A stretch of 64,000 nucleotides of DNA from Streptomyces sp. B21-105 (GTDB lineage: Bacteria; Actinomycetota; Actinomycetes; Streptomycetales; Streptomycetaceae), in NCBI RefSeq assembly GCF_036898465.1, contig NZ_JARUMJ010000001.1, positions 5,518,001 to 5,582,000 on the forward strand. The letters run 5' to 3'. Below the pieces are notes generated by a model that was not told where the DNA came from, did no database searches, and worked only from the letters and a program-made list of their open reading frames with translations. Below, piece by piece: positions 35,229 through 38,200 of this stretch (its first letter is position 1; each line of letters starts with the position of its first letter). The position numbers and the translations under genes were made by a program.

Positions 35229-38200
35229 TTGGCCGCCTCGCGCAACGCCTCGACCTCGAATACGAACAACGCCGCCAGCACTGCCCCGCTGCGCATCTCT
35301 TTTGCAAAGATCAAGGAGCCGCTCGAGGTTCCCAACCTGCTCGCGTTGCAGACCGAGAGCTTTGACTGGCTGCTCGGGAACACCGCCTGGCAGAGTCGGG
35401 TCGAGGCGGCTCTGGAGTCCGGTCAGGACGTCCCCACCAAGTCCGGTCTGGAGGAGATCTTCGAGGAGATCTCCCCGATCGAGGACTTCTCCGGGTCGAT
35501 GTCGCTGACGTTCCGCGACCACCGCTTCGAGCCGCCGAAGAACAGCATCGACGAGTGCAAGGACCGTGACTTCACGTACGCGGCCCCGCTCTTCGTGACG
35601 GCCGAATTCACGAACAACGAGACCGGCGAGATCAAGTCCCAGACGGTCTTCATGGGCGACTTCCCGCTCATGACGAACAAGGGCACCTTCGTCATCAACG
35701 GCACCGAGCGTGTCGTGGTGTCGCAGCTGGTCCGTTCGCCGGGTGTCTACTTCGACTCCTCCATCGACAAGACGTCCGACAAGGACATCTTCTCGGCCAA
35801 GATCATCCCTTCCCGGGCGCCTGGCTGGAGATGGAGATCGACAAGCGCGACATGGTCGGTGTGCGCATCGACCGCAAGCGCAAGCAGTCCGTCACCGTCC
35901 TTCTGAAGGCTCTCGGCTGGACCACCGAGCAGATCCTCGAGGAGTTCGGCGAGTACGAGTCCATGCGCGCCACCCTGGAGAAGGACCACACCCAGGGCCA
36001 GGACGACGCGCTGCTCGACATCTACCGCAAGCTGCGTCCGGGCGAGCCCCCCACGCGTGAGGCCGCGCAGACGCTGCTCGAGAACCTCTACTTCAACCCC
36101 AAGCGCTACGACCTGGCCAAGGTCGGCCGCTACAAGGTCAACAAGAAGCTGGGCGCGGACGCTCCGCTCGACGCGGGCGTGCTGACCGTCGAGGACGTCA
36201 TCTCGACGATCAAGTACCTGGTCAAGCTGCACGCCGGCGAGACCGAGACGGGCGCGGACAACGGCACGACGATCGTCGTCGAGACGGACGACATCGACCA
36301 CTTCGGCAACCGTCGTCTGCGCAGCGTCGGCGAGCTCATCCAGAACCAGGTCCGCACGGGCCTGGCGCGTATGGAGCGAGTCGTCCGCGAGCGGATGACG
36401 ACCCAGGACGTCGAGGCGATCACGCCGCAGACCCTGATCAACATCCGGCCGGTCGTCGCCTCCATCAAGGAGTTCTTCGGCACCAGCCAGCTGTCGCAGT
36501 TCATGGACCAGAACAACCCGCTCTCGGGTCTCACCCACAAGCGCCGTCTGTCGGCGCTCGGTCCGGGTGGTCTCTCCCGTGAGCGGGCCGGCTTCGAGGT
36601 CCGTGACGTGCACCCCTCGCACTACGGCCGCATGTGCCCGATCGAGACGCCCGAAGGCCCGAACATCGGTCTGATCGGCTCGCTCGCCTCCTACGGCCGC
36701 GTCAACGCGTTCGGTTTCGTGGAGACGCCCTACCGCAGGGTCACCGACGGTGTCGTCACCGACGAGGTCGACTACCTGACGGCCGACGAGGAGGACCGCT
36801 TCGTCATCGCGCAGGCCAACGCCACGCTCGACGACGACCTGCGCTTCACCGAGAACCGCGTCCTGGTCCGCCGTCGTGGCGGCGAGGTCGACTACGTCCC
36901 CGGTGACGACGTGGACTACATGGACGTCTCGCCGCGCCAGATGGTGTCGGTCGCGACCGCCATGATCCCGTTCCTCGAGCACGACGACGCCAACCGTGCC
37001 CTCATGGGCGCGAACATGATGCGTCAGGCCGTGCCGCTCATCAAGAGCGAGGCCCCGCTCGTCGGCACCGGCATGGAGTACCGCTCCGCCGTCGACGCCG
37101 GCGACGTGGTCAAGGCCGAGAAGGACGGTGTGGTCCAGGAGGTCTCCGCGGACTACATCACCACGACCAACGACGACGGCACGTACATCACGTACCGCCT
37201 GGCCAAGTTCTCCCGCTCCAACCAGGGCACCTCGGTCAACCAGAAGGTCATCGTCAACGAGGGCGACCGGATCATCACCGGTCAGGTCCTCGCCGACGGC
37301 CCGGCCACCGAGAACGGCGAGATGGCGCTCGGCAAGAACCTGCTCGTGGCGTTCATGCCGTGGGAGGGTCACAACTACGAGGACGCGATCATCCTGTCGC
37401 AGCGCCTCGTGCAGGACGACGTCCTCTCCTCGATCCACATCGAGGAGCACGAGGTCGACGCCCGTGACACCAAGCTCGGCCCCGAGGAGATCACCCGGGA
37501 CATCCCGAACGTCTCCGAGGAGGTCCTCGCCGACCTCGACGAGCGCGGCATCATCCGCATCGGTGCCGAGGTCGTCGCCGGCGACATCCTCGTCGGCAAG
37601 GTCACGCCCAAGGGCGAGACCGAGCTGACCCCGGAGGAGCGCCTGCTGCGCGCGATCTTCGGCGAGAAGGCCCGTGAGGTCCGTGACACCTCGCTGAAGG
37701 TGCCGCACGGCGAGATCGGCAAGGTCATCGGCGTCCGCGTCTTCGACCGTGAAGAGGGCGACGAGCTGCCGCCGGGCGTGAACCAGCTGGTTCGTGTCTA
37801 CGTGGCGCAGAAGCGCAAGATCACGGACGGTGACAAGCTCGCCGGCCGTCACGGCAACAAGGGCGTCATCTCCAAGATCCTGCCCATCGAGGACATGCCG
37901 TTCCTCGAGGACGGGACCCCGGTCGACATCATCCTCAACCCGCTGGGTGTGCCGTCCCGAATGAACCCGGGACAGGTGCTGGAGATCCACCTCGGCTGGC
38001 TCGCCAGCCGCGGCTGGGACGTCTCCGGTCTCGGCGAGGACTGGGCGCAGCGCCTGCAGGTCATCGGCGCCGACCAGGTCGCCCCGGGCACCAACGTCGC
38101 CACCCCGGTGTTCGACGGCGCCCGTGAGGACGAGCTCGCGGGTCTGCTCAACCACACCATCCCGAACCGCGACGGCGAGCGCATGGTGCAGCCGACCGGT

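Follow-up and report, generated by a model that had tools for sequence, protein, structure and literature searches.

A one-base frame break in the single rpoB gene of a Streptomyces genome, probably an assembly or base-calling indel

A frameshifted rpoB has been described in Escherichia coli, where a validated +1 frameshift in the gene is viable because of 5% spontaneous, non-programmed ribosomal frameshifting at CCC-AGG-C (PMC7022156). Frame breaks have also been described as residual errors of long-read Streptomyces assemblies. Between PacBio-only assemblies and their short-read-corrected versions there were 70, 295, and 335 SNPs and indels, mostly single-base homopolymer insertions (PMC6923854), and another long-read assembly retained 205 indels, nearly all in runs of G or C (PMC4832174). 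For one strain, three assemblies brought the number of frameshifted pseudogenes down from 116 to 41; the passages on these assemblies say nothing about rpoB frames (PMC10836205). The locus described here shares with the E. coli case a one-base frameshift in the essential rpoB gene, although the shift here is in the other direction and in another region of the gene. With the residual indels of PMC6923854 and PMC4832174, it shares a one-base change in a G or C run of an otherwise good assembly. Those indels were corrected with short reads, whereas the rpoB site here is known from assembled sequence and has a substitution adjacent to it.

The analysis covered a window of 64,000 nucleotides, the whole stretch of DNA under study. 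Its open reading frames and translations showed rpoB split over two frames (Table 1). The first frame encodes RpoB up to ...SAKIIPSR and unrelated residues beyond, and it runs into a premature stop at 35904-35906. The second frame continues with ...AWLEMEIDKRDM... and is open through the rest of RpoB as far as the stop at 38711-38713. Upstream it is open back to 35567; its first ATG, at 35831, was used as the start of the piece in searches. In the rpoB model search, this piece (35831-38713) matched positions 171-1095 of PRK00405. The two pieces thus cover contiguous model positions, as expected of the rpoB family (TIGR02013/PRK00405), but in two frames instead of one continuous frame. The original prediction of a two-frame rpoB joined after SAKIIPSR was thereby borne out. 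The second piece alone scored 1561.8 bits against the TIGR02013 cut-off of 801.15, which excludes a chance match, and Pfam RNA polymerase domains were found on both pieces. The predicted length was also reproduced: 35229-38713 comprises 3485 bases, or 1162 codons minus one base, and one restored base gives 1161 amino acids from the TTG. In a named Streptomyces (L036), rpoB likewise encodes 1161 amino acids and starts with a TTG at the corresponding place.

Table 1. Features of the rpoB region (positions in the window)
Feature	Position	Strand	Basis or remark
rpoB N-terminal piece, TTG start to break	35229..35816	+	PF04563; PRK00405 positions 3-165
Break with frame change: one base short of relatives, adjacent substitution relative to G013	35814..35819	+	Alignments
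Out-of-frame tail of first frame to premature stop	35817..35906	+	Lacks a tandem -1 slippery heptamer and any run of at least 4 equal bases
rpoB remainder, second frame to normal stop	35820..38713	+	ORF, PRK00405/TIGR02013, Pfam
rpoC, single open frame, 1299 amino acids	38824..42723	+	ORF and model search

Comparison with Streptomyces relatives showed that the break is private to this assembly and absent from close relatives. The genus was taken as Streptomyces, to which the best-matching named loci belong. Taking the best row per genome, 36 of 36 relatives from the genus had a matched stretch with one base more. When exact junction patterns were searched in 392 genomes of the genus, the intact-length pattern was present in 328 and the one-base-short pattern in this assembly alone. 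The other 63 genomes fit neither exact pattern; among them, L010, L013, and L031 have an intact junction that uses other codons. The intact junction peptide was found in 26 of 29 relative loci, and the stretches of L005, L020, and L026, which escaped the peptide pattern, were also one base longer, as in the other relatives. Conservation of the frame change among relatives, which would be a mark of programmed -1 frameshifting, was not seen, and a conserved feature was rejected.

In the alignment with the nearest genome, G013, 25 differences were counted over rpoB. The two sequences agree throughout about 205 bases before the break and about 338 bases after it, and between 35613 and 36156 the sole difference is at 35818, where a gap neighbors a substitution. 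The letters do contain GGG at 35815-35817, as predicted, and the gene is one base short. As to the exact base, two aligners put the gap at different neighboring positions, so that the further claim that GGG should be GGGG is one of more than one reading of the site. Given the substitution beside the gap, the break relative to G013 is not a plain shortening of a G run. We infer that gap and substitution arose as one event, since, with 23 differences elsewhere over about 3.5 kb, an independent neighboring change would be uncommon. Outside 35799-35830, all 23 codon differences from G013 are synonymous and 0 are non-synonymous, with 4 in the 200 codons before the break (35199-35798) and 19 in the 961 codons after it (from 35831). 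With 35799-35830 itself not counted, neither flank of the break shows sequence decay, as expected for an artifact. This pattern of silent changes indicates that constraint on the RpoB protein has persisted to the present, and that the lesion would be either very recent or not real.

The genome containing the window comprises 9,212,996 bases in 3 contigs, with a completeness of 100 and a contamination of 0.89. The original prediction had found no second full rpoB in the window, and a full-genome check agreed: no second copy was found in the whole 9.21 Mb by searches with two Pfam domains and with proteins. There was one match each to PF04563, to PF00562, and to the 960-amino acid piece, and a full-length rpoB query gave only two matches, both of which are the known pieces. 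Some actinomycetes have second rpoB genes, and a weak RpoB-like match is present in the nearest genome (122 residues, 39% identity); both would favor a merodiploid strain or a mixed culture, the intact rpoB of which was collapsed or missed in the assembly. However, with no second rpoB match in this genome by family or protein, and with a contamination estimate of this size, such an origin appears extremely unlikely. The weak match lies at C1:76237-76602 of G013, in a 1217-amino acid frame far from rpoB.

The essentiality of rpoB had been put forward as an argument for a sequence error. It is no proof by itself, because the E. coli frameshift is viable (PMC7022156), although the conclusion of an error stands. 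The same case was overlooked in the statement that programmed frameshifting is unknown in rpoB; the statement itself agrees with the titles and abstract openings of the literature on rpoB and frameshift with homopolymer, sequencing error, or programmed frameshifting, in which no programmed frameshift in rpoB is reported. A real frameshift mutation in the strain, compensated by spontaneous frame changes of the ribosome or by slippage during transcription, would follow the E. coli precedent. Because no stop interrupts the second frame from 35567 onward, a -1 shift that restores RpoB might take place at any point of 35567-35906, also before the break, where CCCC at 35584 is the only run of at least 4 equal bases in this stretch. 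The out-of-frame tail, moreover, contains two AGA codons, and AGA is very rare in Streptomyces. Yet rescue at this locus would take a net shift of -1, in contrast to the +1 shift of E. coli, and 35567-35906 contains neither an X XXY YYZ heptamer nor an in-frame CCC-AGG, the type of shift-prone site described for E. coli (PMC7022156). A looser scan starting at 35790 gave five codons at which single-codon -1 re-pairing is possible with one mismatch; three of them precede the break, one lies at it, and one follows the stop. That a second conserved gene, encoding a prenyl synthase, has a similar break in this assembly also speaks against a real mutation, and we regard a rescued frameshift as very unlikely. 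Programmed or spontaneous recoding was rejected on the basis of slippery sites, as neither a tandem heptamer nor CCC-AGG is present in 35567-35906.

The ATG at 35831, which opens the second frame, might alternatively start a separate protein, so that the β subunit would be made as two reassembling polypeptides, a 225-amino acid N-terminal one and one of 960 amino acids. The β subunit of E. coli tolerates splitting at some sites. Here, however, GGAG directly abuts the ATG with zero spacing, and there is no well-placed ribosome-binding site; the GGAG/ATG stretch is identical in G013, where rpoB is whole. The first protein would finish with about 29 unrelated residues, and the short junction occurs in none of the other genomes of the 392-genome set. 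A two-piece β subunit is thus barely credible. Taken more broadly, the proposal that the deletion is real, and that a single-copy rpoB with a broken frame sustains the strain through -1 recoding of unusual efficiency or a two-piece β subunit, without a known slippery site, is very unlikely. A real deletion would offer a natural example, and a rare one, of unprogrammed recoding that keeps an essential gene working. On sequence evidence, a rare mutation that arose in nature or in culture retains a small probability.

For the frequency of broken conserved genes, 800 kb of this genome were compared with 753 kb of G013. Candidate frameshift pairs numbered 14 and 13, respectively. By our own selection, 3 breaks were kept among 419 conserved genes with 149,655 amino acids in this genome (rpoB, a PF00348 gene, and a PF06259 gene) and 2 among 431 conserved genes in G013 (greA and a zinc-binding dehydrogenase). 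Pairs were dropped if they lay near predicted starts with the true start probably after the break, if they were longer indels, or if their ends were weakly aligned; also dropped were one shadow frame, on the strand opposite the dehydrogenase indel, and a break in a hexose dehydratase gene that probably precedes the true start of that gene. The PF06259 break and both G013 breaks were judged from this pair of genomes alone. Inside the window, rpoB was the only gene flagged as broken. Outside it, a one-base gap at C1:5490778 divides the PF00348 gene, which encodes a prenyl diphosphate synthase, into two pieces; of 24 other genomes searched in the genus, 23 have this gene at full length and free of stops, and G008 gave no match. 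Other conserved genes of the same assembly are thus also broken by one base (the prenyl synthase gene and, in addition, the PF06259 gene), as an artifact would predict. The assembly does not, however, have clearly more breaks than G013 (3/419 versus 2/431 genes). An error-ridden assembly was therefore not supported, as the break rate is about that of G013 and the assembly does not stand out. From 3 breaks per 149,655 conserved residues, we calculated an expected chance of about 0.02 that a gene the size of rpoB is hit. The PF06259 (α/β hydrolase) gene, at about C1:5582200 and about 200 bases beyond the end of the window, is out of frame relative to G013 with clustered changes. In G013, greA (at about C1:5501975) has a one-base insertion relative to this genome.

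Taken from the sequence comparisons, the rpoB break is very probably an assembly or base-calling indel rather than new biology. One missed base together with a neighboring miscall in a G+C-rich run would have led to a consensus error, presumably introduced during sequencing or assembly, and the living strain most likely has one ordinary intact rpoB. An assembly or sequencing error, already considered most likely in the original prediction, is the best supported explanation because the break is private, no second rpoB was found genome-wide, the protein is constrained and shows no decay, another gene is broken alike, and rpoB is in pieces in three other genomes of the genus. Several observations count against an artifact. 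The run at the break is short, with 3-4 bases, and the break is a deletion, whereas the errors in PMC6923854 were mostly insertions. The assembly is also not unusually poor, given its completeness of 100 and a break rate like that of G013.

In the genus, at least 4 of 295 genomes, including this one, gave multiple matches to rpoB. Two candidates per genome were considered in this count; about half of the matches were listed, all of those full-length, and the rest were judged by the number of matches per genome. The break lies at about residue 196 in this genome, at about residue 83 in G248, and at about residue 1043 in G143, and the rpoB of G222 is spread in several pieces over two contigs. 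The drafts G143 and G222 consist of about 460 and 790 contigs, respectively, and completeness is 81% for G222 and 88% for G248; that these genomes are poorer than the present assembly again counts against an artifact here. As an artifact, the break would serve as a quality flag, since a genome rated 100% complete can be without an intact core marker gene. The same concern applies to the other genomes with rpoB in pieces, some of which are low-quality drafts. Streptomyces sp. WAC08241 (CP042279.1; L085, 2402-5879) is, like the present one, a public Streptomyces genome in which rpoB is not in one frame; its rpoB was matched in all three forward frames, whereas here there is a single break.
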